Positions 4,730-25,068 of a stretch of 38,027 nt of DNA are shown here, piece by piece. Every line of letters starts with the position of its first letter. Positions within the stretch are counted from its first letter, which is position 1. Below the pieces are notes generated by a model. The model had not been told where the DNA came from, ran no database searches, and saw nothing but the letters and a program-made list of their open reading frames with translations. The translations under genes and the position numbers were made by a program. This stretch comes from a virus: positions 1 through 38,027 of the IMG/VR virus record IMGVR_UViG_3300025310_000015; one strand, given 5' to 3'.

Positions 4730-5124
4730 CGCCTCATCCTCACGCGCGCGCGCGCGACTCGCGTGGCTGGCATGAGGAACACCATGACCTCGCCTCACCC
4801 CCACGCGCCGGGGCGCGACTCGTTGCGGAAAGGCTTCAGCTTGTGCAAGCCCGCCTCACCCCCACGCGCGCGGGCGCGACCTTGAGCCTGGCGTCTTTCA
4901 GCCACCTTCGCTCGCCTCACCCCCACGCGCGCGGGCGCGACACCTCTGGGCCACCATCGACTTCGGCGGCGATCGCCTCACCCCCACGCGCGCGGGCGCG
5001 ACGTCCTATCGCCTGCGAGGAGACCACAGGCCTTCGCCTCACCCCCACGCGCGCGGGCGCGACGACCAAGGTCGTCGCGCTCCTCGAGAAGCTGTCGCCT
5101 CACCCCCACGCGCGCGGGCGCGAC
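4730..5124 (-). CRISPR. CRISPR array, 7 repeats / 6 spacers, type I-E-like repeats
   Basis: Strict 61-bp period: 29-bp repeats at 4730, 4791, 4852, 4913, 4974, 5035 and 5096, separated by six different 32-bp spacers. The five right-hand repeats are identical. The two left-hand ones carry three and two changes, typical of the trailer end, so the leader is on the right and transcription is leftward, like the adjacent effector gene. Read leftward the repeat starts GTCGCGCCCGCGCGCG and ends TGGGGGTGAGGCG. It can fold CCCGC/GTGGG with a GCGC loop and matches the size and layout of E. coli type I-E repeats (29 bp repeat, 32 bp spacer). A weak further remnant may end at 4696. No cas1, cas2 or Cascade gene is in the window. 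By eye no spacer matches elsewhere here. Confidence 0.93.
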
Positions 5125-5399: not shown

Positions 5400-6959
5400 T
5401 CAAGGAACGTTTCGACGCACGCTTTTGACGTAGTTCGGCAGCGTCGGCCGCGTCTCCTTTCGCCCCGTCCGGAGACGCAGGGTATCCAGCGCCAGCAGCT
5501 CCGCGGCGTGAAACGGCAGCTCCCGGTCGCGTCCGCAGCCCGGGCACGCGGGCGCCGGGGCCTCCTCCACGCGCACGGGCTCGCCGGGCGCCCAACCGCA
5601 GGCGGTACAGGTGAGGGAGGGGCCGTAGATGCGCCGCACGCGCGCGGGGGGTAACCCGGCCTCCTCCGTCAACTGGACGAGGATCTCGGCCAGCCGGGAA
5701 AAATGCTTGTAGCGCAGCAACGGCGTCGGCCTGCGCCGGCCCGGGTCCTCCAGGAGCACGATCTCCGCGCCGTGGCGGCAGGCGAGATCGATGATCTGGT
5801 GCCCCGCGGAATAGAGCACATGCTCCGCCACGCGCGCCGCGCGCCGGTCTCCGGCGAGGGACCGGCCCTTCCGCTGGCGGATCGCCCGCAGCCGTGTCAG
5901 GGCGCTGATCGTCCGCATGAGGTCCCGGCCATCGATGGCCGTCGTCGCCAGCCGCCGGCCGCGCGCGTCCAGCAGCACGCCCGCGACGAGCGTGTGTACG
6001 CCGCGGAGGAGCGCCAGCACCGCGCCGCTCGTCGGGCGGGGCTCCCGCCGTGGATACTCGAACTCTACGTGCAGGTAATACTCTCCGTCGCGTTCTACGA
6101 GCAACGCCGATTTGGGCGTGCCCCGGCCCGGAAACAGGCGCTCCCAGCGCTTGCGCCGCCGCCCCGGCCCCGTGCCCATCTCGATGGGCACCAGCATCGT
6201 CGAGGTAGCGCGGCCGGGGAGATACTCCTCCCGGGAGCGGACGTTCGCCAGGGGGCCGCGGTTCGCGCGGTTCCCCGCCCGGCGGGGCGTCTCTCCCAGG
6301 GGGTCCCCTTTCGGCCAGAGGGTCAGCGCCGCGAACCACTTGCGGTCGGCGCGGCGGATCAGGCCGCAATGCGCCAGATGGCCGGGCCGCACGCCCGACT
6401 GCGCCGCGCCAAAGTAGAGCGGCATGCGCCGCTCTCGCGCCTCACGCGTCACCGCCGCCCGCCAGCGGTCCTCCTCGGCCCGCGTGAGGACGGTACGACT
6501 GGCGTCCAGGGCGGCTTCCCACCGCTCCCGCGCCCCCCGCGCCGTGCCCGCAGCGACCGTCGGGAACCCGGGTTTGCGTCCCGCGGGCTTGCCGCTCGTC
6601 AGCCACTCCGCATAAAGCGCCAGCCAGGAACCCAGCAGGCCCTCCACGGCGACGATCAGCGCCATGGCGAGCGCGCTGTGCAGATCCCGCGGCAGGCCCC
6701 GGCAGTAGCCCAGAACCCGGGCGTGCAGGGCGCGGGAATCCACCTCAAACCGCGCCGGACGGTCGCTTCCCATCCCGTCCCCGGGGGGCGCCGACCGGCC
6801 GGCTCCGCGCGGCCTAAGCGTCCGCAGAAGCGCCCGCTGGTCGGCGCGGGCGCGGTCCAGCGCCTCCCCCATCCCCGCCGACCAGCGCGCCAGCGCCGTC
6901 GCCAGCCGCCGGCGATCGTGAGGGTGCACGCGGAGCTTGAAACAGGCCGTCCGGTACAC
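5400..6959 (-). CDS. TnpB/Cas12-family (type V-like) effector with degenerate RuvC site
   Basis: A 519-aa basic protein, GTG start three bases after the stop of the IbrB-like gene. The N-terminus (MYRTACFKLRVHP) resembles the TnpB/Cas12 wedge-domain start. The C-terminal third has the family order: RuvC-I at 312-334 (ALLRGVHTLVAGVLLD), RuvC-II at 399-407 (EIVLLEDPG, Glu404), a zinc finger with Cys451, 454, 472 and 475, and RuvC-III at 478-492 (DRELPFHAAELLALD). In active relatives RuvC-I has Asp where this has Leu318 (GID-RG versus ALL-RG), and RuvC-III has Asp where this has Pro482 (DxNAA versus PFHAA). Hence predicted DNA binding without cutting. Length lies between TnpB (about 400) and Cas12m (about 600). 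The gene directly precedes the CRISPR array on the same strand. Alternative: a domesticated TnpB unrelated to the array. Confidence 0.85.
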   Translation of the reverse strand: MYRTACFKLRVHPHDRRRLATALARWSAGMGEALDRARADQRALLRTLRPRGAGRSAPPGDGMGSDRPARFEVDSRALHARVLGYCRGLPRDLHSALAMALIVAVEGLLGSWLALYAEWLTSGKPAGRKPGFPTVAAGTARGARERWEAALDASRTVLTRAEEDRWRAAVTREARERRMPLYFGAAQSGVRPGHLAHCGLIRRADRKWFAALTLWPKGDPLGETPRRAGNRANRGPLANVRSREEYLPGRATSTMLVPIEMGTGPGRRRKRWERLFPGRGTPKSALLVERDGEYYLHVEFEYPRREPRPTSGAVLALLRGVHTLVAGVLLDARGRRLATTAIDGRDLMRTISALTRLRAIRQRKGRSLAGDRRAARVAEHVLYSAGHQIIDLACRHGAEIVLLEDPGRRRPTPLLRYKHFSRLAEILVQLTEEAGLPPARVRRIYGPSLTCTACGWAPGEPVRVEEAPAPACPGCGRDRELPFHAAELLALDTLRLRTGRKETRPTLPNYVKSVRRNVP

Positions 6960-6962
6960 GGG

Positions 6963-7625
6963 CTACTCCCACGCCTCGGAAAAAACCCCGTCGGCGAAGA
7001 GTTGCGCCAGGCCCGAGACCTGTTTCAACCGCAGCACCTCGTCGGCGTCCATCCCCAGCTCGCGGGCGATGCGGGCGTCCGACCAGTTGCGCCGCGCGAG
7101 CTCCACCACGATCTCGCTCATCCCGGCCACCTGATGGACGCCGCGCGCCCGGTTGTGGCGGATCGTCGCCGCGATCCGGTCCGCCCGCTGCCCGCGATCC
7201 GGATTGATCGTGACCACGGGCAGATAGCCTCCCGTGCGCGCCCGCACCGTCCGGCTCGTCATCCCGACCTGGCGGCGATGAAAGCCGTCCACCACCTCCC
7301 GGCGTGTCTCCTCCAGGAACGTGACGACGGGCTGCGTGTACCCGTCCGCGGCGATACTGTGCTCCAGGAGTTTCAGCTCCGGTTTCGCCACCGTGTTGGG
7401 ATTGTAGTCGTTCGCCTCGACGGCCTCGGCCGGCAGCCAGAGCACGCAGTCCACGGGTTCGGCCGCCAGGGGGCTGACGGCCTGGAGACGGCGCCGCACC
7501 CGGTTGAGCGCCGCGATTCGCTCCGGCACGGGCAACCGTTCGATCCGGTCGCAAATCGTGTCGATCAGGGCCTCCATCGTGCGCTCCTCCGTCTGCCGGC
7601 GGATGTCGACCGTCAGATTCCCCAT
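6963..7625 (-). CDS. IbrB-like ParB/sulfiredoxin-superfamily protein
   Basis: A 220-aa protein. Residues 68-120 carry the ParB-like core: EANDYNPN, HSIAADGYTQPVV and VVDGFHR (113-117, at the site of the ParB GxxR box). A TIRHNRARGVH motif near 154-165 is typical of the IbrB group, and a C-terminal HTH-like part (WSDARIARELGMDADEVLRL) follows. It overlaps the IbrA-like gene by 13 bp and is followed after three bases by the TnpB/Cas12-like gene, so all three are probably one transcript. IbrA/IbrB pairs are known from E. coli prophage-like elements as co-acting regulators of Ig-binding proteins; the chemistry of the pair is unsettled. The function here is inferred from pairing and motifs. Confidence 0.78.
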   Translation of the reverse strand: MGNLTVDIRRQTEERTMEALIDTICDRIERLPVPERIAALNRVRRRLQAVSPLAAEPVDCVLWLPAEAVEANDYNPNTVAKPELKLLEHSIAADGYTQPVVTFLEETRREVVDGFHRRQVGMTSRTVRARTGGYLPVVTINPDRGQRADRIAATIRHNRARGVHQVAGMSEIVVELARRNWSDARIARELGMDADEVLRLKQVSGLAQLFADGVFSEAWE

Positions 7626-8836
7626 TCGCGCCTCCGGTTTTGCATGACGCGGCGATACTGCTCGTAGGCCGTCGATTTGTGCTGCGTGAACGACAGGCCT
7701 TTACACCAGTAGTCGTTTCGCAGCAAGGCTTTCACGATCCGGCGCCAGGAGGGGGCCTTCCGTGCCGCCTCCAGTGCCGGGTCCGATTCCTCGGGGATCC
7801 CGTTCGGGTAGCCGCGGAGCATCCACCAGCGGCAGAAAACGGCGATTTTGTTCTCGTAATGCTCGCGGGTGCGCTCCGGGAGGCTGGCGAGCAGAAGCCG
7901 GGCGAAGCTCTCCCAGGTGTGCCCGGGGGGGCGAGAGACGCGGATCATCCCGTTGACGTTTCCTGTCTCGCGCGCGTAGAGAGCGCCGCCGTTGGCCCCC
8001 GCCACCCGCGCGACCACCCGTCCCCACGTTTCGGGCTCGATGGCGTGAAACAGCCACAGACCGCGCCGCTGATCGTCCCCGTACGGCTGACAGATGCGCG
8101 CCTGGTGGATGGAGAGGCCCGCCTGGTACATCCGGTCGTAAATCCGGTTATACGGCAGGCCCGTCGTCCCGTGATAGACCCAGACGTCCTCCGTTTTCCA
8201 GTCGTAGAGCGGATAAATGTTCACCACGGTGCCGCCTTTCCACGTGGTGTAGCCGCGTCCCTCGAAGCGGCTTTTGTCCCGCACGACGGTCCGGTAACGA
8301 TTGAGGCTCTCATCGGCGCGAATCCCGACGAAACAGCCGCACGCCCTGCCTCCGGCATACCAGTCCGCGAACGCCGGCACGAACTCCTCGAACTCCATCC
8401 CCCGCCGGAAAAAGGGGAAAAATCCCTCGTCTACGATCGCCTCGGGCGGCGGTTCCCGCACCCAGAGCGGCCGCGCCCCCGGGTCCCAACAGAGCCAGTG
8501 CGTCTCGAAAACGCTGACCGCGTTGCGGAGGTTCAGCGGCAGCGCCACCCAGAAACACTCGACGCAGCCGGCGTAGCGGGCCAGCATCTCCCGCGCGTGC
8601 TCGATGGTCAGCCGGTACTGCGCCTCCAGGTCGATGAACAGCACCCCGACCCGCCGTCCCCGCCGCGTCGCCTCCTCGCCGACGAGATGGAGCATCACCG
8701 TCGAGTCCTTCCCCGCCGAGAACGACACGTAGAGCCGGGGAAAGGTCTCGAAGGCCCAGGCGACGCGTTGCCGCGCCGCCGTCAGGACGTCGATTCCCAG
8801 GCGGCGTTTGCCCCCGCCTCCCTCCCGTCGAGCCAT
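7613..8836 (-). CDS. IbrA-like phosphoadenosine phosphosulfate reductase-family protein
   Basis: A 407-aa protein; ATG 8836 has a good GGAGGAGG ribosome site nine bases upstream. The PP-loop is clear at residues 34-46 (RLYVSFSAGKDST). It is followed by FIDLEAQY, a cysteine pair near CGCFVGIRADES, and IYPLYDWKTEDVW, all typical of PAPS-reductase-like ATP pyrophosphatases of the DUF3440/IbrA type. A C-terminal region with WWMLRGYPNGIP is also usual for this family. The enzymes activate a substrate with ATP; the phage substrate is unknown. Its partner IbrB-like gene overlaps its end. An alternative role is DNA backbone or base modification (compare DndC), but no dnd partners are seen. Confidence 0.85.
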   Translation of the reverse strand: MARREGGGGKRRLGIDVLTAARQRVAWAFETFPRLYVSFSAGKDSTVMLHLVGEEATRRGRRVGVLFIDLEAQYRLTIEHAREMLARYAGCVECFWVALPLNLRNAVSVFETHWLCWDPGARPLWVREPPPEAIVDEGFFPFFRRGMEFEEFVPAFADWYAGGRACGCFVGIRADESLNRYRTVVRDKSRFEGRGYTTWKGGTVVNIYPLYDWKTEDVWVYHGTTGLPYNRIYDRMYQAGLSIHQARICQPYGDDQRRGLWLFHAIEPETWGRVVARVAGANGGALYARETGNVNGMIRVSRPPGHTWESFARLLLASLPERTREHYENKIAVFCRWWMLRGYPNGIPEESDPALEAARKAPSWRRIVKALLRNDYWCKGLSFTQHKSTAYEQYRRVMQNRRREWGI

Positions 8837-9204
8837 TCGAGAACCTCCTCCCGCGTCATCAGCACTCTCTCCCCCGCCGCGTCCACACGGCAAAAGTACC
8901 GCTCGACGCGCCTCCAGGTGAGGCGATGACAGACCTCGTAGACCTCCCCCGAGTGCAGCCAGAAGGTCTTGCGAACCCCCCGGGATCCCGTGGAGTTCGC
9001 GTGCGTGTAATCCGTCTGCGAGCGCAAAAACTCCCGCTCCAGCCCGTACCGCGGGCAGATCCCCACGATCCGGGCGACCCAGGGCTCGGGAAACAGCACC
9101 CGCCGGTAGGCCACCGGGTGCCCGGAGAGGAGGCGTCGATACAGGCGCGTCAGGCGGTGCGGGCCGTCGGCGCCGATGGCTTCCACCACGAGAGCGTGGA
9201 CCAT
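8782..9204 (-). CDS. Hypothetical protein upstream of the IbrA-like gene
   Basis: A 140-aa protein starting at ATG 9204, overlapping the previous stop by one base; its 3' end overlaps the IbrA-like start by 55 bp. Residues 1-60 (MVHALVVEAIGADGPHRLTR, then HPVAYRRVLFPEPWVARIVG) look like a compact alpha/beta fold, and the C-terminus (YFCRVDAAGERVLMTREEVL) has one Cys. No family recognised. Tight packing with the IbrA/IbrB genes suggests co-function or simple co-expression. Confidence 0.6.
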   Translation of the reverse strand: MVHALVVEAIGADGPHRLTRLYRRLLSGHPVAYRRVLFPEPWVARIVGICPRYGLEREFLRSQTDYTHANSTGSRGVRKTFWLHSGEVYEVCHRLTWRRVERYFCRVDAAGERVLMTREEVLEWLDGREAGANAAWESTS

Positions 9205-9833
9205 CACCGGGGGCCCTCCCGGTGGTGCCATTCGATCCGATGGGGGCTATCGGCCGGCGCTCCGCCGGCCCAGGGGAAAACGCGGGCGTTCGACGGCTCG
9301 TCGCGCCCGAACAGACCCGTCGCCAGGAGGCGGCGGATCGCCTGACGCCGCGCGCCGTCCGGCGGCAGCGGGCTGGAGACCCACTCGGCGAGCGTCTCCC
9401 AGACGGCCCTGGCCCGCGCCGGCTCGGGGTCCTCGTACCGCTCGGGGCCCGCGGCCTGCCAGTGAAAATCGGTCGCGTACGCGTAGATCACCGGCCCGCA
9501 AAACCGGTTCAGCCCGTCGTTCTGAATCCCGAGGGACCAGTGCACGCCCGGGCGGATGATCGCCAGGAGATTGTCGTTCCGGGGCACCGCGCGCAGCGCG
9601 GAAAGCGGCGCCTCCTCCCCCAGTCGCAGCCCCCGCCAGGCGGGGCCGAGCGGCGACCGCAGGAAGGCCGCCGGCGCCTCCGACCGCGCGTAGAGGGACG
9701 GGACGCCCAGCAGGCGAAACCAGTGCTCTCCCGTCCGATCGGTCTGGACGGCGCACCAGCAGCGGTCCGCGTCCCTCTCCGGAATCCAGGCGCACGCCGT
9801 GATCCGGATGAGAGTGCGTCGCGAGATCGTCAT
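9204..9833 (-). CDS. Hypothetical protein
   Basis: A 209-aa protein. The start ATG 9833 overlaps the previous stop. The sequence is rich in Trp, Arg and Pro, with a central stretch (NLLAIIRPGVHWSLGIQNDG, then FCGPVIYAYATDFHWQA) suggesting beta strands; no membrane segment or known motif. It lies in the accessory operon upstream of the IbrA/IbrB/effector genes and is coupled at both ends. Function unknown. Confidence 0.6.
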   Translation of the reverse strand: MTISRRTLIRITACAWIPERDADRCWCAVQTDRTGEHWFRLLGVPSLYARSEAPAAFLRSPLGPAWRGLRLGEEAPLSALRAVPRNDNLLAIIRPGVHWSLGIQNDGLNRFCGPVIYAYATDFHWQAAGPERYEDPEPARARAVWETLAEWVSSPLPPDGARRQAIRRLLATGLFGRDEPSNARVFPWAGGAPADSPHRIEWHHREGPR

Positions 9834-10006
9834 GGCGCCTCCGTGTTTTGTCCGCCGGCGAGGGATTCCTTGCGGCGCCGAACGCCCTCCGCCACGATCT
9901 GCCGCAACAGTTCCCGCCGGCTCATGCGGAGACGCCAGCGGAGATCGTCCAGCTCCGCCAGCAGCCCGGCGGGAAGCACCAGTGTAATTTGCACATCCTC
10001 AGACAC
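9830..10006 (-). CDS. Ribbon-helix-helix DNA-binding protein
   Basis: 58 aa when started at GTG 10006, chosen because a GGAGGAGG ribosome site lies a few bases upstream. The protein reads SEDVQITLVLPAGLLAELDD, then LRWRLRMSRRELLRQIVAEG: a short beta strand followed by two helices, as in CopG/Arc-type RHH repressors. Such proteins bind operators as dimers. It is a likely autoregulator of this operon, perhaps acting at the promoter at 11771-11799, where short direct repeats occur. The target is inference. Confidence 0.75.
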   Translation of the reverse strand: MSEDVQITLVLPAGLLAELDDLRWRLRMSRRELLRQIVAEGVRRRKESLAGGQNTEAP

Positions 10007-10517
10007 GCTGACCCTCCTCCAGCCAGGCGGCGGCAAAGCAGGTCGCGAAATCCGCCGCGATCATGACCCGCTCCGGATCGGCGCCCGGCGTGGGCAGCAC
10101 CGTCGCCACCACGATCGGCCGCTCCTCGTAGAGCGGCATCACGATCTCTGCCAGCGCCGTCGCCGTCATCCCGTGCGCGCCGGAGACACCCAGGATCGAG
10201 GCGATTCCGTAGATCCCCGGTTCCGGCTCCGTCGTCTCATGGATGACGCAGTTGTACTGAAACGCCGTCTCCCCCGGCGCGCCGACGCAGAAAATGAGGC
10301 GATTGCCGGGCGCCTCCCCGTACCCGGCCGGCATCCCGAGGCGGACGGTAAACGTCGGGAGCCCCTCGACACCGTGGGGGATCTCGAGGGCTCCCGAGCG
10401 CAGGCGGGAGAGCAGCCCGGCGCAGAGGGAGACGGCGGGCGCCGCCAGCTCGCGGGCGTCGACCACGCGGCGGGAGAGGACGGCGCCGCCTGAGATCGTC
10501 ACGTCTCGGAAGATCAT
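9999..10517 (-). CDS. Hypothetical alpha/beta protein
   Basis: A 172-aa protein, overlapping genes on both sides by four to eight bases. Motifs seen: AAPAVSLCAGLLSRLRSGAL, RLIFCVGAPGETAFQYNCVI and a Gly-rich GIYGIASILGVSGAHGMTA. It looks like a soluble enzyme-like fold, but I cannot place it. Context: accessory early operon. Confidence 0.55.
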   Translation of the reverse strand: MIFRDVTISGGAVLSRRVVDARELAAPAVSLCAGLLSRLRSGALEIPHGVEGLPTFTVRLGMPAGYGEAPGNRLIFCVGAPGETAFQYNCVIHETTEPEPGIYGIASILGVSGAHGMTATALAEIVMPLYEERPIVVATVLPTPGADPERVMIAADFATCFAAAWLEEGQRV

Positions 10518-11332
10518 TTCGCCCTCCCCGCGGTCGCACGGATGCGCGCCGCGAGCTCCCCATCGTAGGGCACGAATCGTCCGATGGCGCCGGCGCCGCC
10601 CGTGCGGACGTTGTTTGCGCCCCAGTCGTCGCCGTCCCTCCCGTTGTTTCGGACGGCCCAGATCCGGCCGTCCGCCTCCTCGATCACGAACCAGCGCCCC
10701 CCGCCGTAGATCCGCTGGCCCGACGCCGGGATCTCGATCTCCTCACCGGAGAGGACGTGCGAGCCGGGTTCATACGTCCCGTCGCGGTCCACCTGGTCGA
10801 AGAGGGCGGCGAGCTCGCGGCGCGCCTCGGCCCGCCGGGCGGCCGCGGCCTCCGCCTCTCGCACGGGCGCCGCTTCCTCCTCCGTCGCCGGGCGGAGGCG
10901 AAACGTGTAAAGGAAGCCCGATTCGTCCCCGACCCCAAAACTCATGCCGTCCTCGCGGACCCATTGCTTCCGGACCGCCGCCACGACCCAGCAGGAGCCG
11001 GGGGCTGCCCCCGGCAGCCTGTGCGCGAGGCCGCCGCCGCGCCCGGATTTCGCCAGGATCACCGAGCCCTCCCCGGCGTCGTCGAGCAGGTAGCCCGATC
11101 CGATCGTCACCTCGATCCACCCCTCGGGGAGGGGCGAAGGAGCGTGGGAGTCTCGGATACCCCCGCGGCGGGGGGCGGCCGGCGCGTTCGCCACGAGCGC
11201 CCGCGCCGCCTCGGCCTGGCTCTCCGGCACCTGCCACACCCGGGCGTCGGCATCCCACCGCCCGCCGAGCGCCTTGAGCTGGTCCCTCACAGGAAAGGTG
11301 TTGCCCGTGACCGCCACCATCCGCTCGCTCAC
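10514..11332 (-). CDS. Hypothetical protein with DUF5710-like N-terminal motif
   Basis: A 272-aa protein. Residues 6-45 (VAVTGNTFPVRDQLKALGGR, then WDADARVWQVPESQAEAARA) match the short (F/Y)PVKDxLKxLGxRWDxxxxxW motif common in phage and plasmid proteins that handle DNA. The rest contains beta-rich stretches (IEVTIGSGYLLDDAGEGSVI), an Ala/Glu/Arg-rich helix near 155-180, and a C-terminal repeat of WFVIEE and WAVRNN. No catalytic motif recognised. Coupled by ATGA overlaps to both neighbours. Confidence 0.6.
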   Translation of the reverse strand: MSERMVAVTGNTFPVRDQLKALGGRWDADARVWQVPESQAEAARALVANAPAAPRRGGIRDSHAPSPLPEGWIEVTIGSGYLLDDAGEGSVILAKSGRGGGLAHRLPGAAPGSCWVVAAVRKQWVREDGMSFGVGDESGFLYTFRLRPATEEEAAPVREAEAAAARRAEARRELAALFDQVDRDGTYEPGSHVLSGEEIEIPASGQRIYGGGRWFVIEEADGRIWAVRNNGRDGDDWGANNVRTGGAGAIGRFVPYDGELAARIRATAGRAK

Positions 11333-11733
11333 GCCGCCACCTCCGCGTTCGTCACCGGCCGGCCGGCCGCGTCCACCAGACCGGCGAAATTCGGATTCGT
11401 TGCCAGGAAATCCTTGAGGCCGTGCAGACTGGCGTGCCAGCCCTCGTAATAGCCGGCGTTGTAGGCCGGGTTCGGTCGCTCCTCACCATACGGGTGACCC
11501 GTGAGCCGGTCGAGAAGCGCCTGGCCGCGCCCCTGATGCCACTCCGGCTGCCCCTGGAGGGAGAGCGCCGCCGCCTCGCGTTTCGCCAGACCGAACGTCG
11601 TCCGGCGCCGCTTCCAGTAGCCGGCGTCACCACGCCGGCTTTCGATCTCCGCCATGGCGGCGTCCCGCATCTGCGCCTTGCGCTCCGCGTTCCGCCGGTC
11701 CCGCTCCGTCAACTGGTAGACCGCTCGCTCCAT
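11329..11733 (-). CDS. Small hypothetical protein, first gene of the effector operon
   Basis: A 134-aa protein; ATG 11733 has AGGGGAG just upstream and lies 38 bp from the -10 box of a strong leftward promoter. The N-terminal 40 residues are a charged helix (LTERDRRNAERKAQMRDAAM). The C-terminal part includes RPNPAYNAGYYEGWHASLHG, a Tyr/Trp-rich motif. Not recognised. As first gene of the operon that ends with the Cas12-like gene, it could be an early regulator. Confidence 0.6.
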   Translation of the reverse strand: MERAVYQLTERDRRNAERKAQMRDAAMAEIESRRGDAGYWKRRRTTFGLAKREAAALSLQGQPEWHQGRGQALLDRLTGHPYGEERPNPAYNAGYYEGWHASLHGLKDFLATNPNFAGLVDAAGRPVTNAEVAA

Positions 11734-13733: not shown

Positions 13734-14042
13734 CTACTCCCACACCCACACCGGCTTCGCGCCCGGTCCCGCCGCGCTCGGCAGCCAGTAGTGCCGGCCC
13801 GGCTCCAGATCCCGGCAGTCCTCCTCGCCCGGCCAGCGGTAGCGCACCCACTCGGCGCATAGCTCCCACGGCTCGATCACGTCGCCCGGATCCAGGTAGC
13901 CCATCGCGATCAGTTCCTCCGTCATCACGCGCGCTGCTTCTCTCCGGCCGGGATACCGCTCGCGGGAGAGATACGCGCACTCCAGCGGCTTGCTCCAGCC
14001 GCAGGGGATCGTCTCGGCGAACAGGTCATCGAAGGCGCTCAT
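13734..14042 (-). CDS. Hypothetical acidic protein (102 aa)
   Basis: Starts at ATG 14042, overlapping the stop of the DpdA-ParB gene by four bases. Acidic and Trp/Tyr-rich (MTEELIAMGYLDPGDVIEPW, then ELCAEWVRYRWPGEEDCRDL). No family recognised. It is directly downstream of the putative DNA-modification gene and so may act with it, but this is only context. Confidence 0.55.
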   Translation of the reverse strand: MSAFDDLFAETIPCGWSKPLECAYLSRERYPGRREAARVMTEELIAMGYLDPGDVIEPWELCAEWVRYRWPGEEDCRDLEPGRHYWLPSAAGPGAKPVWVWE

Positions 14043-16777
14043 GCCTGCTCCTCCTCCTTCCACCGCCCCAGATACCACCGCGCCCGCTTCGGGATCTGTC
14101 CGGCCCGGCAGTCGTCCAGGTCCCGCGCGAGGAGGGCCGCTCCCGTGAGCTTCCAGATCGCCGTCGGGCTCATCTCCAGGAGCGCCTCCAGCGCCGCCGT
14201 CTCGTCCCAGCCGGACAGCACCTCCGTCAGGTGCTCGCGCCCCCAGGCCCGGAGCACGGGTGCCAGCACCGCCCCCGGCACCGAGACCAGCGCGGAGACG
14301 GCGATGAGGGCGGCCAGGCGCGTATCCTGCTCGACGGGGCAGGAGGACCAGAAGGCGCGGATGGCGGTCTCCAGCTCCTCCGCCTCCGCCGCCCACTCCT
14401 TCTGCCGCCGCCGGAACCCCCGGTCGGCCGCGCGCTGCTTCTCGCGCCTTTGCTCCTCGGCGGCCGCCCATTCGGCGCGCACCTCCTCATCGATCAGGGG
14501 GGCGCCGTTCGTGGCCGCGGGAGTGGGGTCGGAAGGTCCGGCCGCCCCGGTTCCTGCCGGTACCGGGTGCGCGCCACTCCGCGCCTTCTCCCGCTCTTGC
14601 CGCCACATGGTCTCCAGTCGCCGGCTCGTCAGGCAGCTCCTGGGATCGGCGGCGGTGCGCGCCAGCTCCACGCACCGCGTCTCGTCGGCGGCGAACGGCA
14701 GGAGCGCGCGGGCGGTGGCGCCCGGGATCTCGCCCCGATCCGCCATCTCCTGCACCTCGGCGGGGAGTTTCAGGAGCCGGAGGCTGTTGCTGATCGTGGG
14801 GAGCTTTTTGCCCAGCCGCCTGGCGATCTGGGTCGGCGTCATCCCGGAGTCGACGAGCGCGACGAGGCCGCGGGCCTCCTCCATCGGCGAGAGGTCCTGG
14901 CGCTGGAGGTTCTCAATGAGGGAGAGCAGCCGGTCGACGTCCTCCGGGCCCTCCCGCACGATGGCCGGGATCCGCTCCCATCCCAGCAGCCTGGCCGCCC
15001 GCCACCGTCGCTCCCCGGCGATCAGGCGGAACCGATCGCCCTCCCGGCGAACGAGGATCGGCTCCAGCAGGCCGTGCTGCTCCATGCTCGCGCCAAGCTC
15101 CTCGATCCCGGAGACCGTCCGCCGGGCGTTCCGGGGGTCCGGGTCGATTCGCGCGACGGGCAGCTCGCGCAGGCCCGCGGGCTCCGACGCCCGGCCGGCA
15201 GAGGGTGGGGTTTCGGTCCGGTTGGGGGATGGTTTCGCGGCCGCGCGGGCCGCGGCCGCGCGCGCGGCATGGCAGCCGACAGCAGGCCCGGAATCTCCCG
15301 ACGGGGCCGTTGCCTCGCCCTCCGCCGCGCACCGATCGCACAGGAGGACGTGACCCTCGCCTGTTTCGCCGGAACACACCACGCACCGCCCGGCCGGCAC
15401 CGACGGGCTCGTCGGCGTCGCCAGCAGCTCCAGGCGATTCGCCGTCTCCCAGACCTCGCGCGGGATGTAGCCCTGCCAGCGACCGGACAGAATCTTGTTC
15501 ACGGTCTCCGGGAGCACCCCGGCTTCGCGAGCGAAGCCGCGGGCGCTGATCTTCCGGCGATGGAGCGCCGCGCCGAACTGGAGACGCCAGTTGGGCGCGG
15601 CGGTCTCCGCGAGCCAGCGCGCGGTCTCCGGGTCCGGGGGCGCCGTACCCTGATCGGCCGCGATCAGGACCGTCTCCCGGTCCGGTTTTCTCCGATTGCC
15701 CTTCGCCGCCGCCATCTCCCGGATCTTGCGGTCGGCCGGGCAGAGCCGATCCTCCCCCACGTTCCGATCGGTGCCGCAGCCGAGACACGTGGAGGTCGTG
15801 GCAGGTTTCATGCGGAGCGACATCGGTTCCTCCTTTGCAGGAAATGACCAGAGGGAGAGCTGTTCCTCTGTTTTCGGGTGCGGGGGACGCCGGTAATCCG
15901 GGTGGCAACGCAGATTTGCCACGTGCGACTGCCACCAGGCACAGTTCTCCTCCCACGTCGGACGCCGCGCACCCGACTTCTTCAGGTCTCCCCAGGTCAC
16001 GGCGAGCAGCGGGGATGCAGAATCCACCGACAGGGAAAGGCCATGCGCGTCGGTTATCCAGAGGAGACCGGCGAGCGCCCGGCTCCAGAGGCAGCCGAAG
16101 AGATGGACGCGGGAGATGTTGGCCTCGGCGATCATGGGAACCACGCGCCACATCGCATCCCAGAAGACCGGGAGCCACTTCCGGTTCCTCCCCAGAATAC
16201 ACCAGCCGCCGAAACCGATCCAGTCGGCGGGACTCGCCGAGGACAGCACGCCCGCCGTGCACTCCTCGTACTGCGCGGCCGTCACTCCCTGGACGGAGAG
16301 CACCAGCCTGCGGGGAACGAGCGTCTCCCGGGTGCTCGCGAGGTATGCCGCCGCCGCCACCGTCTCGCAGACGGCATCCTCCGCGGCTTTGGCACTCCAG
16401 CGTTGTTTCTCACGGCGTCGTCGAATTCCCCCGCTCGAATCGGGAGCTACCCACGTCTCGTCGATCAGTCGATCGTAGGAGACAAGGGCCTCCGCATGAA
16501 ACGGAGCACCCCAGAAGCCGGACGCCTTTTGCTCCCAGGCGAGCTGCCGCGAAAGGGCTTCCGCCGGCGAGAGCCGCTCCTCGGGCGAATCGGAGAAGGC
16601 GCCCGAATCCAGCAGGACGCGCAAGCGTGGAACTTCCTCCTTCCGGAACCGGCTGTTGACCTTGTTGGCCGCCGTGAAGCAGCGCGTCCCCGTCAGGTCC
16701 ACGCGCCGGCGCTGTACGGTGTCCACGTCGCCTCCGATGTAGAGAATCGGACTGTCAGGGACGGGCGCGGCAGACAA
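14039..16777 (-). CDS. DpdA-like 7-deazaguanine transglycosylase joined in frame to a ParB-type protein
   Basis: One open frame of 912 aa. Residues 1-305 resemble DpdA/TGT barrels: VLLDSGAFS (Asp57), VSYDRLIDE, GFGGWCILG (188-196), RVHLFGCLW and LSVDSAS (Asp252, at the TGT nucleophile site). DpdA swaps guanine for preQ0-type bases in DNA, which shields phage DNA from restriction. Residues 319-912 differ: a Cys4-like knuckle at 331-346, an HTH at 405-440, a second knuckle (CVVC...CDRC, 466-483) and a full ParB/Noc module with GERRWRAA at 588-595 and an HTH at 647-665. A strong ribosome site precedes Met319 (position 15823), so a separate 594-aa ParB product is likely, alone or besides the fusion. 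Both activities are inferred from motifs. Confidence 0.8.
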   Translation of the reverse strand: MSAAPVPDSPILYIGGDVDTVQRRRVDLTGTRCFTAANKVNSRFRKEEVPRLRVLLDSGAFSDSPEERLSPAEALSRQLAWEQKASGFWGAPFHAEALVSYDRLIDETWVAPDSSGGIRRRREKQRWSAKAAEDAVCETVAAAAYLASTRETLVPRRLVLSVQGVTAAQYEECTAGVLSSASPADWIGFGGWCILGRNRKWLPVFWDAMWRVVPMIAEANISRVHLFGCLWSRALAGLLWITDAHGLSLSVDSASPLLAVTWGDLKKSGARRPTWEENCAWWQSHVANLRCHPDYRRPPHPKTEEQLSLWSFPAKEEPMSLRMKPATTSTCLGCGTDRNVGEDRLCPADRKIREMAAAKGNRRKPDRETVLIAADQGTAPPDPETARWLAETAAPNWRLQFGAALHRRKISARGFAREAGVLPETVNKILSGRWQGYIPREVWETANRLELLATPTSPSVPAGRCVVCSGETGEGHVLLCDRCAAEGEATAPSGDSGPAVGCHAARAAAARAAAKPSPNRTETPPSAGRASEPAGLRELPVARIDPDPRNARRTVSGIEELGASMEQHGLLEPILVRREGDRFRLIAGERRWRAARLLGWERIPAIVREGPEDVDRLLSLIENLQRQDLSPMEEARGLVALVDSGMTPTQIARRLGKKLPTISNSLRLLKLPAEVQEMADRGEIPGATARALLPFAADETRCVELARTAADPRSCLTSRRLETMWRQEREKARSGAHPVPAGTGAAGPSDPTPAATNGAPLIDEEVRAEWAAAEEQRREKQRAADRGFRRRQKEWAAEAEELETAIRAFWSSCPVEQDTRLAALIAVSALVSVPGAVLAPVLRAWGREHLTEVLSGWDETAALEALLEMSPTAIWKLTGAALLARDLDDCRAGQIPKRARWYLGRWKEEEQA
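15829..15836 (-). promoter_or_regulatory. Strong internal ribosome binding site within the DpdA-ParB frame
   Basis: Read leftward, AAAGGAGG is followed by AACCG and ATG at 15823. This is ideal Shine-Dalgarno strength and spacing, in frame with the upstream DpdA part and with no stop codon between. Start of a probable 594-aa zinc-finger/HTH/ParB protein. The junction is also where the two halves differ in family, supporting two originally separate genes. Confidence 0.7.
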
Positions 16778-17102
16778 GGCGCATCTCCTGCGAGGGAAAG
16801 AGCACGAGATCGGCGATTCCCACGACCGGAACGCCGAGGGCCTTTGCCGCCTCGGCCGTGATCGTCTGGATCATCGCCTCCATGCTCCGCACTTCCCCAC
16901 GCCCGCCGATGAAGCTCTCCACATAGGCGTGGAGGCTGAACACCTCCAGCACCGTCTCTCCCGGCCGGTAGGAGAGCGTGAGCGTGCTGCCCGGCCGAGG
17001 ATTGCCTGAGACCGGACAGCAGCCGGGGAGATCAAGACGGAGGCGGTGCCGCTCGGACATGCCGACATCGGGCCGTTCGTTGGGCATTGTGCGGAGGGTC
17101 AT
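16755..17102 (-). CDS. QueF-like tunnelling-fold protein
   Basis: A 115-aa protein. Residues 24-52 read DLPGCCPVSGNPRPGSTLTL and then SYRPGE; the CPVSGNP box matches the QueF CPVTGQP site, where the Cys forms a thioimide with preQ0. EVFSLHAYVESFIGGRGEVR sits where QueF has its ESK...LKLY motif, but the exact ESK is missing, so reduction of preQ0 to preQ1 is not assured. Further MIQTITAEAAKALGVPV is typical of the T-fold helix. It lies immediately upstream of, and overlaps, the DpdA-like gene, which strongly suggests a 7-deazaguanine DNA-modification pair. Alternative: a FolE2/QueF-like binding protein. Confidence 0.72.
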   Translation of the reverse strand: MTLRTMPNERPDVGMSERHRLRLDLPGCCPVSGNPRPGSTLTLSYRPGETVLEVFSLHAYVESFIGGRGEVRSMEAMIQTITAEAAKALGVPVVGIADLVLFPSQEMRLVCRARP

Positions 17103-17317
17103 GCTCTTCCCTCACGTTTCCACGCCTCGAAATGCGCCTCGCAGAAGCACGCGCTCGCGAAGTCCTCTTCGTCGCCCGTTCTCACCTCGTAGACGGCCAG
17201 CCGGTCGCACGCCTCTTCCTCGCAGGCGTAGCCCTTACCCTCGCAGTCTTCGACCTCCCACACCTGGCCGCCCACAAGCACCTCGTTCTCCGTCAGGTAG
17301 CCGTCAAGATCCGGCAT
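17099..17317 (-). CDS. Small cysteine-rich zinc-binding-like protein (72 aa)
   Basis: Starts at ATG 17317 (MPDLDGYLTENEVLVGGQVW). Then CEGKGYACEEEACDRLAVYE and ACFCEAHFEAW give five Cys and a His in zinc-finger spacing. It overlaps the QueF-like start by four bases. Acidic. Function unknown. Confidence 0.6.
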   Translation of the reverse strand: MPDLDGYLTENEVLVGGQVWEVEDCEGKGYACEEEACDRLAVYEVRTGDEEDFASACFCEAHFEAWKREGRA

Positions 17318-17599
17318 CCGTCCCGCCCTCCACGTCCCACTCACTCTGCGTAGCGGCGATGCACGCCGGGTGCGTGTCGACCCAGCCGACCACCGATGAT
17401 CCGACCACCGTGAAGCCGTGGCGGATGCGCCCGCGTTTGCCCGGCCCTTCCTTCGCCCCGGTCCAGTAGCGGACCCGCGTGCCGATGGCAACGGCATCTG
17501 TGAGTAGCTTCGCGGTGCGCTCGAGGCTCTCGCCACTGTCGCGCACCGATCGCACAGGAGGACGTGACCCTGACAGATCAGCGGCGCGGCGGTTTTCAT
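17304..17599 (-). pseudogene. Small SH3-like protein, apparently frameshifted near its start
   Basis: An ATG at 17599, overlapping the previous stop (ATGA), opens MKTAAPLICQGHVLLCDRC, then loses sense. The frame ending at 17304 carries the convincing remainder: DSGESLERTAKLLTDAVAIG, then TRVRYWTGAKEGPGKRGRIR, an SH3/KOW-like barrel with WVDTHPACI. Joining them needs a one-base shift near 17540. The shift lies in a 32-bp stretch (17540-17571) identical to 15326-15357 in the zinc-knuckle part of the ParB gene. Either the gene is broken, or a GTG near 17555 is the real start (83 aa). Confidence 0.5.
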
Positions 17600-17886
17600 T
17601 GTCCTTTGAGCCGGGTCACCCGGTAGGTCACCGGTTCGCCGGCGGCCCGGCGAACCTGGTCCAGAGACAACTCCACTCCCCGCAACTCCGCGGGGATGTC
17701 GAGCGGCACCTCGGTGACGCTTGCGGCCAGCGCCGCCAGGCGCAGCGGCAGGATGCCGATGACGTGCTTGCCGCGCACGTCGTCCTCGCCGACGTGCGCG
17801 AGGACGGGAGTATCGGGATCGACGATCCCGCGCTCGCGCAGGTATTCGATCAGCGCCGGGTGTCGCGTGATGAGGATCCGTTCCAT
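17596..17886 (-). CDS. Csx16-like protein (candidate ring nuclease / anti-CRISPR)
   Basis: A 96-aa protein from ATG 17886. Motifs: MERILITRHPALIEYLRERG, then a KHVIGILPLRLAALAASVTE block, EVPLDIPAELRG and a C-terminal strand. This follows the Csx16 (Cas_VVA1548) plan: a (T/S)RHPxAxEWL start, GxLPxxLAA, a leucine/proline strand, then RGxEL. Csx16 proteins are linked to type III CRISPR and have been proposed as ring nucleases that remove cyclic oligoadenylate. In a phage, such a protein could blunt host type III immunity, as AcrIII-1 does. No type III genes are nearby. The assignment is from pattern and needs a profile search. Confidence 0.62.
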   Translation of the reverse strand: MERILITRHPALIEYLRERGIVDPDTPVLAHVGEDDVRGKHVIGILPLRLAALAASVTEVPLDIPAELRGVELSLDQVRRAAGEPVTYRVTRLKGQ

Positions 17887-17939
17887 CGTTGTTTCCTCTC
17901 TGTGTCGGCGGCGATCAGCCAACCGGCTAACGCCGGGCT

Positions 17940-23487: not shown

Positions 23488-23804
23488 CAGGCGGCCTCGC
23501 GACGCGCCCGCCCCACGAGACGATAGACGTACTCCGTCGTGCAGCCCACGTCGGCGGCGATGGCCCGGGCTTTCTCCCCCGCCTGGTAGCGGCGCAGGAT
23601 CGCCGCGTGGTCCAGCCTCCGGGAGTGCCGGCCGGCGCCGCGGGGGCGGTGCTTGAACGCCTCCAGCGTGGAGCGCAGGAACCCGTGCGCGCGCGGCAGG
23701 CGCACGTCCGGGGTGATCCGGCCCTTGTGAATGTAACCCCGCAGCGTCGCCACGGAAAGACCCAGATACCGGGCGGCCTCGGTCACGGAATAGATGCGTT
23801 CCAT
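23487..23804 (-). CDS. MerR/HTH-type DNA-binding protein
   Basis: A 105-aa protein. Residues 1-45 (MERIYSVTEAARYLGLSVAT, then LRGYIHKGRITPDVRLPRAH) form a MerR/excisionase HTH. Residues 65-100 (LDHAAILRRYQAGEKARAIA, then ADVGCTTEYVYRLVGR) form a second, Trp-repressor/transposase-like HTH. Likely a regulator. Its ATG overlaps the divergent methyltransferase ATG inside CCATGG, so binding near this point could control both. Confidence 0.78.
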   Translation of the reverse strand: MERIYSVTEAARYLGLSVATLRGYIHKGRITPDVRLPRAHGFLRSTLEAFKHRPRGAGRHSRRLDHAAILRRYQAGEKARAIAADVGCTTEYVYRLVGRARREAA

Positions 23805-25068
23805 GGATACAGTCTACCCGGAGAGTGAGGTCATTGTCCAGAGGGGCGCGACGGTCCGGGAGACGAGCCTGGCGGAGCTGGAGTTCGATCCCAGGAACGC
23901 CAATCGGGGCACCGACCGCGGGCGGGAGGCACTCCGGCACTCGCTCTCCTCCTACGGCGCGGGGCGTTCGATCCTCCTCGACAAAAACGGCCGGATCCTC
24001 GCCGGGAACAAGACTGCCGAGCAGGCGGCGCTCCTCGGTCACGAGAGTTTGATCGTGGTCGAGACGGACGGATCGAAGCTCGTCGCCGTGAAGCGGGTCG
24101 ACCTGGACGGGGAGAGTCCCGAGGGTCGCGCGTTGGCCCTGGCGGACAACCGCGTGGGGGAGCTCGATCTCTCCTACGATCCGGCGATCCTCTCCGAGGC
24201 GCTGGCCGATGGGATCGACCTCTCGTCGCTCTGGACGGGCGACGAGCTGGAGGAGCTGCTCGCGGGGCTCACGGAGCCTTCCGGGCTCCTGGAGGGCGCG
24301 GGCCCCGACGCGATCCCGGAGGAGGTGGAGCCCAGGACGACGCCGGGGGACCTGTGGGCGCTCGGTCGGCACCGGCTCCTCTGTGGCGACAGTACGAAGT
24401 CTGAGGACGTGGAGCGGCTCCTGAGCGGAGAGACGCCTCGCCTCATGGTCACCGATCCCCCCTACGGCGTCGACTACGATCCGGGATGGCGCAACGAAGC
24501 CGCTGCCGCGGGACGGATCGCCTTCGCGGCGAGCCGCGAAGGCAAAGTCGCCAACGACGATCGCGTCTCATGGACCGAAGCCTGGTCGCTCTTCCCAGGC
24601 GACGTCGTCTACTGCTGGCATGCCGACCGGCATGCCAGCGAGGTGGCATCCGACCTTCTCGGCTCCGGCTTCGAGATCCGCAATCAGATCATCTGGGCCA
24701 AGCCCCGTTTCGTGATCAGCCGGGGCCACTACCACTGGCAGCATGAGCCGTGCTGGTACGCCGTTCGCAAAGGCGCCGCCGCCCACTGGTGCGGGGACCG
24801 CTCGCAGACGACCCTCTGGGAGATCCCGCTGACGACGGACGGCGAGAGGACGGATCACGGCTGCCAGAAGCCGGTCGAGTGCATGCGCCGCCCGATCAAG
24901 AATCACAAGGGCGACGTCTACGACCCCTTCGTCGGCTCCGGCTCCACGCTCATCGCCGCCGAGATGGAGGGACGCCGCTGCTACGCGATCGAGCTTGAGC
25001 CTCATTACTGCGACGTGATCCTCGCCCGCTGGGAAACCGCCACCGGCGAGACCGCGCGGCGGCTCTGA
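23803..25068 (+). CDS. ParB-like domain fused to beta-class DNA methyltransferase
   Basis: 421 aa from ATG 23803 (an in-frame ATG at 23794 adds three). Residues 20-130 are ParB/Srx-like (FDPRNANRGTDRG, then ILLDKNGRILAGNKTAEQAA). Residues 185-415 are an N4/N6-type amino-methyltransferase: catalytic DPPYGVDY at 218-225 and SAM-binding DPFVGSGSTLIAAE at 374-387. Catalytic motif before SAM motif is the beta-class order. Such fusions sit beside terminase genes in many phages and modify packaged DNA against host restriction. No cognate nuclease is present. The domain between the motifs includes HWQHEPCWYAVRKG, usual for the family. Confidence 0.92.
   Translation: MDTVYPESEVIVQRGATVRETSLAELEFDPRNANRGTDRGREALRHSLSSYGAGRSILLDKNGRILAGNKTAEQAALLGHESLIVVETDGSKLVAVKRVDLDGESPEGRALALADNRVGELDLSYDPAILSEALADGIDLSSLWTGDELEELLAGLTEPSGLLEGAGPDAIPEEVEPRTTPGDLWALGRHRLLCGDSTKSEDVERLLSGETPRLMVTDPPYGVDYDPGWRNEAAAAGRIAFAASREGKVANDDRVSWTEAWSLFPGDVVYCWHADRHASEVASDLLGSGFEIRNQIIWAKPRFVISRGHYHWQHEPCWYAVRKGAAAHWCGDRSQTTLWEIPLTTDGERTDHGCQKPVECMRRPIKNHKGDVYDPFVGSGSTLIAAEMEGRRCYAIELEPHYCDVILARWETATGETARRL

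Follow-up and report, generated by a model that had tools for sequence, protein, structure and literature searches.

A stand-alone csx16 gene of a tailed phage as a candidate counter-defence gene against cA4-signalling type III immunity

What is the role of a gene of the Csx16 family, which is associated with type III CRISPR loci, in a tailed phage that has no such locus? The stretch of DNA analysed here (the window) is a whole IMG/VR virus record, 38,027 bases long, although the record itself may be a fragment, and it encodes a terminase large subunit, a portal protein, a major head protein, a head maturation protease and an endolysin. The terminase is closest to those of Roseobacter and Rhizobium phages, but at only about 41%, which gives no host call. 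Profile searches of the window with RAMP (PF03787) and Cas10 palm (PF22335) models returned no match, while the type III-B locus of an Aeromonas media plasmid, used as the positive control for the Cas10 search, was detected at 2.5e-35. An earlier reading of the letters without database searches (the sequence-only reading) had described the carrier as a phage without type III genes, and this description is borne out by the terminase, portal and capsid genes and by the RAMP and Cas10 searches of the window. The window csx16 therefore does not lie in a type III CRISPR locus and, like the genes classed as anti-CRISPRs (AcrIII), is encoded by a virus that lacks the targeted system. We consider it likely that the product is a stand-alone, predicted cA4-degrading protein directed against type III immunity, i.e., a counter-defence gene of a tailed phage.

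The 96-aa open reading frame was found exactly where the sequence-only reading had placed it (Table 1), and the three motifs quoted there (TRHPALIEYL, IGILPLRLAA and LDIPAELRG) are all present in the translation. The strand, which had not been given, is minus, with the ATG at 17886 and the stop codon at 17598-17596; the plus-strand frame across the same interval is an unrelated string and was rejected. The profile search proposed at that time, with PF09652 (Cas_VVA1548, i.e., Csx16), gave a match with an E value of 7.9e-20 and a bit score of 71.3, above the cut-off of 25, which joins residues 5-90 of the protein to positions 2-90 of the 91 in the Pfam profile, and the PADLOC Csx16 model matched at 2.6e-19. 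By contrast, TIGR02620, a hypothetical equivalog of NCBIfam, scored 25.5 bits, under its cut-off of 46.35, which marks the protein as divergent within the family. Nevertheless, its membership of the Csx16/PF09652 family is clear and far beyond chance. PF09652 was the sole Pfam match at E values up to 1, DUF1874 (AcrIII-1/Crn2) not being matched, and PHROGs held no family for the protein. A sequence search of the PDB gave one match, to a DARPin, which was judged to be chance. The frame immediately downstream had no family match in the profile search, and it may not be a real gene along its full length.

Table 1. Features of the window referred to in the text, in order of position
Feature	Position	Strand	Basis or description
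CRISPR array	4730-5124		seven 29-nt repeats (CGCCTCACCCCCACGCGCGCGGGCGCGAC), 32-nt spacers, period 61
519-aa frame	5400-6959	minus	weak TnpB match, NF040570 E 4e-4
PAPS reductase/DUF3440 protein	7613-8893	minus	phrog_2302, E 2.8e-78
Frame with unmatched N-terminal part	14039-16777		
QueF-like protein	16755-17102	minus	TIGR03139, 24.6 bits, under cut-off
Next frame downstream of csx16	17099-17599	minus	ATG overlaps csx16 stop by 4 nt (ATGA)
csx16-like gene, 96 aa	17596-17886	minus	PF09652, PADLOC Csx16, AlphaFold2 model
Shine-Dalgarno-like GAGAGGA	17894-17900	minus	sequence; 7 nt upstream of csx16 ATG
ParB-DNA methyltransferase fusion	23794-25068		

Csx16 is viewed in the literature as a derived Rossmann, CARF-like fold (PMC12409355). 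The AlphaFold2 model obtained from a five-row alignment had a mean pLDDT of 91.2 and a pTM of 0.77, with strands alternating with helices. A Foldseek search of the PDB with this model gave nothing under an E value of 0.001. With VIA-align, CARF domains were among the best rows, namely Cam1 with cA6 (Z 3.8), the ring nuclease Sis0455 with substrate (Z 3.6), SiRe_0806 and Cad1, although these scores are weak (Z 3.2-3.8, the best of all rows being 4.0) and interleaved with those of unrelated methyltransferases. The predicted model thus agrees with the published fold, but these matches would not by themselves establish a CARF-like one.

The protein resembles the Csx16 of type III loci (PF09652/TIGR02620) in family, length, conserved polar residues and, presumably, in being a small CARF-like protein. 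In the example of Aeromonas media pMC64A, csx16 lies between a CARF gene and csm6, with cmr genes adjoining, whereas the window gene stands alone, with no cas10, cmr or csm, and its product differs by a mean identity of about 30%, residues of its own and a separate clade. The type III set used for comparison consisted of four proteins (two from Allochromatium and one each from Aeromonas and Photobacterium), all of them plasmid-borne, and in the alignment the virus proteins were on average 48.9% identical to one another and 29.8% identical to the type III proteins. All polar positions that do not vary among the four aligned type III-locus proteins and that the virus set also conserves, namely T/S7, R8, H9, H31, R69 and E72, are kept in the window protein, and likewise G44-x-L46-P47 and G70; the Csx16-wide residues (T/S)RH, H31, GxLP and RGxEL of the virus, plasmid and type III alignment are present in the window protein. 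Other positions are fixed or nearly fixed in one group, i.e., L12, T58 and mostly E59 in the viruses, and A12, W15, D33 and Y57 in the type III set. A maximum-likelihood tree of 37 proteins, in which the inner branches are mostly weak and the type III side has four sequences only, groups two proteins of Deinococcota plasmids with those of the viruses on one side of a branch (97/87) and puts the type III-locus four on another (96/86). The virus/plasmid lineage is therefore separate from the four type III-locus Csx16 sampled.

For a recombinant Csx16 representative, a cA4-specific ring nuclease, full degradation of cA4 to linear products has been described, with cA6 untouched even at 10-fold higher protein (PMC12409355). 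The suggestion of the sequence-only reading that the phage protein may degrade or bind cyclic oligoadenylate is thereby favoured as regards turnover of cA4, but cleavage of cA6, which it had also put forward for assay, is not expected because the tested Csx16 spared it. We infer that the virus lineage has kept the cA4 activity, together with the dimer, the active site and an anti-CRISPR role. The small, presumably CARF-like protein would dimerise, and the dimer would bind the cA4 (cyclic tetra-adenylate) made by a host Cas10 that had sensed phage RNA; the bound cA4 would be cut to short linear oligoadenylates, with T/S7, R8, H9, H31, R69 and E72 as the likely binding and catalytic residues. 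The cA4-activated effectors of the host (Csx1, Can1/2, Cam1 and similar) would then be starved, and infection would proceed.

The same alignment bears on two other explanations. The protein could be a sponge that damps host signalling by capturing cA4 or a different cyclic nucleotide, with cleavage that is not fast, as might be envisaged from Csx15, a neighbour in the CARF superfamily with good binding but very slow cleavage of cA4 (PMC13148439), and from the fixed residues peculiar to the virus lineage. We regard this as unlikely, since all the polar residues common with type III-locus Csx16 are kept, the Csx16 tested is a good enzyme (PMC12409355), and the authors of the Csx15 study find sponging ill suited to the large amounts of cOA produced by type III systems (PMC13148439). 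Alternatively, the virus lineage could have moved to another signal, e.g., a CBASS cyclic trinucleotide or a cOA other than cA4, and block a defence that is not type III. The residues specific to each group mean that ligand or kinetics could have shifted in the virus lineage, and both the low mean identity to type III-locus Csx16 and the lineage-specific residues around the T58/E59 strand are in keeping with such a shift; however, the cA4 specificity of the tested Csx16 even at high protein (PMC12409355) argues against another ligand, and we hold this explanation to be improbable.

The distribution of the relatives also bears on the role. A scan of 2.9 million virus contigs, in which the query was the alignment of the first five members, found 31 loci besides the window, with 26 distinct proteins besides the window's own (27 with it), whereas a scan of 84,980 bacterial and archaeal genomes for the same lineage gave a single match. 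This match comes from a Patescibacteria MAG, on a contig of 4.7 kb that opens with a large-terminase-like ORF (read by eye, not by profile), and a PF09652 search of 287 genomes of the phylum matched one, the same MAG. The patterns of the genome scan were stricter, but they fit 27 of the 32 virus proteins, so the contrast between viruses and genomes does not come from the patterns alone; since they miss the type III kind of Csx16, it covers the virus-type lineage only. Cas10 was absent from all 32 virus records by profile search, and no type III RAMP was found in them, the sole RAMP-like match being a type IV Cas7 (G002/L010). At least 13 of the 32 records have a Terminase_6N match, a lower bound because that model misses the window's own terminase. 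When all ORFs of the 31 loci were compared with one another, csx16 was the only widely shared gene, the other families present at several loci being frames antisense to csx16 and a distant DNA methyltransferase. No conserved csx16 neighbourhood was observed across the 31 virus loci, and for that reason a function based on an operon cannot be claimed. The gene is a mobile single-gene accessory, with the sharing pattern expected for one. Since at least 26 further phages, for the most part unrelated, carry a relative on its own, csx16 is probably a phage weapon that switches off type III immunity. Five of the virus proteins (L010, L011, L023, L029 and L037) have C-terminal extensions of about 100-160 aa that matched no Pfam family, and the tails of L023 and L037 resemble each other.

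The lineage is also found on plasmids, in Deinococcus proteolyticus pDEIPR02 and Allomeiothermus silvanus pMESIL02, with csx16 away from cas genes. These proteins belong to the same tree lineage as those of the viruses and neither plasmid has cas10 or RAMP genes, but the carrier is a plasmid and not a phage, and the Allomeiothermus protein is two-domain. The latter, of 261 aa (positions 9992-10777 of the pMESIL02 locus), has two Csx16 domains in tandem and is encoded in a conjugation-like region. Two Csx16 domains in one chain fit a protein that works as a dimer.

Among cultured phages the family is rare. A tblastn search of INPHARED with the window protein, and with the L036 protein, gave no match, and with cellular Csx16 the only matches were MH674343 and NC_062738, which are the GenBank and the RefSeq entry for a single virus, Methanobacterium virus Drs3. 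Among the 28,114 phage genomes of an earlier INPHARED release, two were previously reported to carry Csx16 (Hoikkala et al. 2025; PMC12409355); these two genomes are presumably the two Drs3 records, and since both records are one virus, the published count of two may be one virus. Drs3 is a precedent for a viral csx16 and resembles the window phage in being a tailed virus with no type III genes in the 7.8 kb examined, although it is an archaeal virus and its protein is a distant long branch outside the window's lineage. The 27 distinct proteins found in virus contigs suggest that Csx16 is commoner as a phage gene and has been missed by cultured-phage databases, and the breadth and separateness of the virus Csx16 lineage are new with respect to the literature consulted.

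Other viral proteins offer parallels for the expected way of working. AcrIII-1/Crn2 is a virus-encoded enzyme that destroys cA4, as is expected of phage Csx16, but it belongs to another family, which the window protein does not match. Unlike the phage Csx16 lineage, AcrIII-1 is experimentally established. The viral SAVED protein AcrIII-2 and phage Crn4b also illustrate the co-option of host type III parts or ring nucleases by viruses against cOA (PMC12751052; PMC12830947), the former having a SAVED fold and the latter a novel Crn4 fold, and neither being Csx16. The authors of the AcrIII-2 study regard the anti-CRISPR label for their viral ring nuclease as plausible but unproven (PMC12751052), and the same caution should hold for phage Csx16, for which there is less evidence. 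If phage Csx16 degrades cA4, it would be a further enzymatic anti-type III protein, and this would point to pressure on these phages from cA4-signalling type III immunity. A broader picture is possible, though doubtful, in which phages have a Csx16 lineage of long standing, dispersed as a lone gene through unrelated tailed phages and a small number of plasmids, that forms a further class of virus-encoded ring nuclease in addition to AcrIII-1 and AcrIII-2 and whose kinetics or ligand range have changed, and in which the Csx16 of type III loci may come from, or exchange with, the viral pool.

The sequence-only reading had also proposed, from the CRISPR array of the window, that the element both uses and blocks CRISPR. 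The array is real, but no link between it and csx16 was found, the two being about 12.5 kb apart and no complete effector system having been found. Virus-borne mini-arrays are known and are thought to act in virus-virus conflicts (PMC6858448). The reverse complement of the repeat is type I-E-like by eye, and no exact copy of the repeat was found in the other virus contigs. The 519-aa frame that ends beside the array has distant matches on haloarchaeal and Salinibacter plasmids and no relative among virus contigs by the scan used; judging from its sequence, in which the RuvC-I aspartate is not evident by eye, it may be nuclease-dead. In another virus record (IMGVR_UViG_3300037424_001387, locus L010), an apparent type IV-B-like module at 8056-11415, on the same strand as csx16, comprises a zinc-finger Csf1-like gene, a small ORF, Csf2/Cas7, a 228-aa ORF and a CysH-like gene; the Csf2/Cas7, at 1.8e-74 with PADLOC, is the only member that was profile-tested.

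These components raise the alternative that Csx16 is not an anti-CRISPR but a regulator, which shields a phage-borne RNA-guided system from cOA signalling or ties that system to it. The seven repeats of the window could be accommodated in this way, and so could the type IV Cas7 and the PAPS reductase-like gene that lie downstream of csx16 at L010, at a distance of about 2-5 kb, but with type IV Cas7 in one of the 32 virus records, Cas10 in none and neighbours that are not shared, we find it very unlikely. The window csx16 and its relative L019 differ with a dN of 0.31 and a dS of 1.31, and the relatives L023 and L037 with values of 0.115 and 1.23, i.e., the gene is under purifying selection. 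That selection, the confident fold and the occurrence in viruses of 26 other distinct homologues, whose contexts are unrelated, make it scarcely credible that csx16 is functionless today, whether as a passenger or through decay, as could be supposed from its shortness and its divergence from the curated NCBIfam model.

Compared with these explanations, an anti-type III role through degradation of cA4 remains the one we prefer, and the surroundings of csx16 in the window are described here in their own right. The QueF-like protein encoded just downstream of the csx16 region may belong to a pathway that modifies the bases of DNA or RNA. An island of QueF-like and DNA-modification genes beside csx16 was weighed and is not claimed, because the QueF match is below the cut-off and the searches gave no match for the N-terminal part of the 14039-16777 frame. 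Farther away, the PAPS reductase/DUF3440 protein and the ParB-DNA methyltransferase fusion are possible further anti-restriction genes of this phage.
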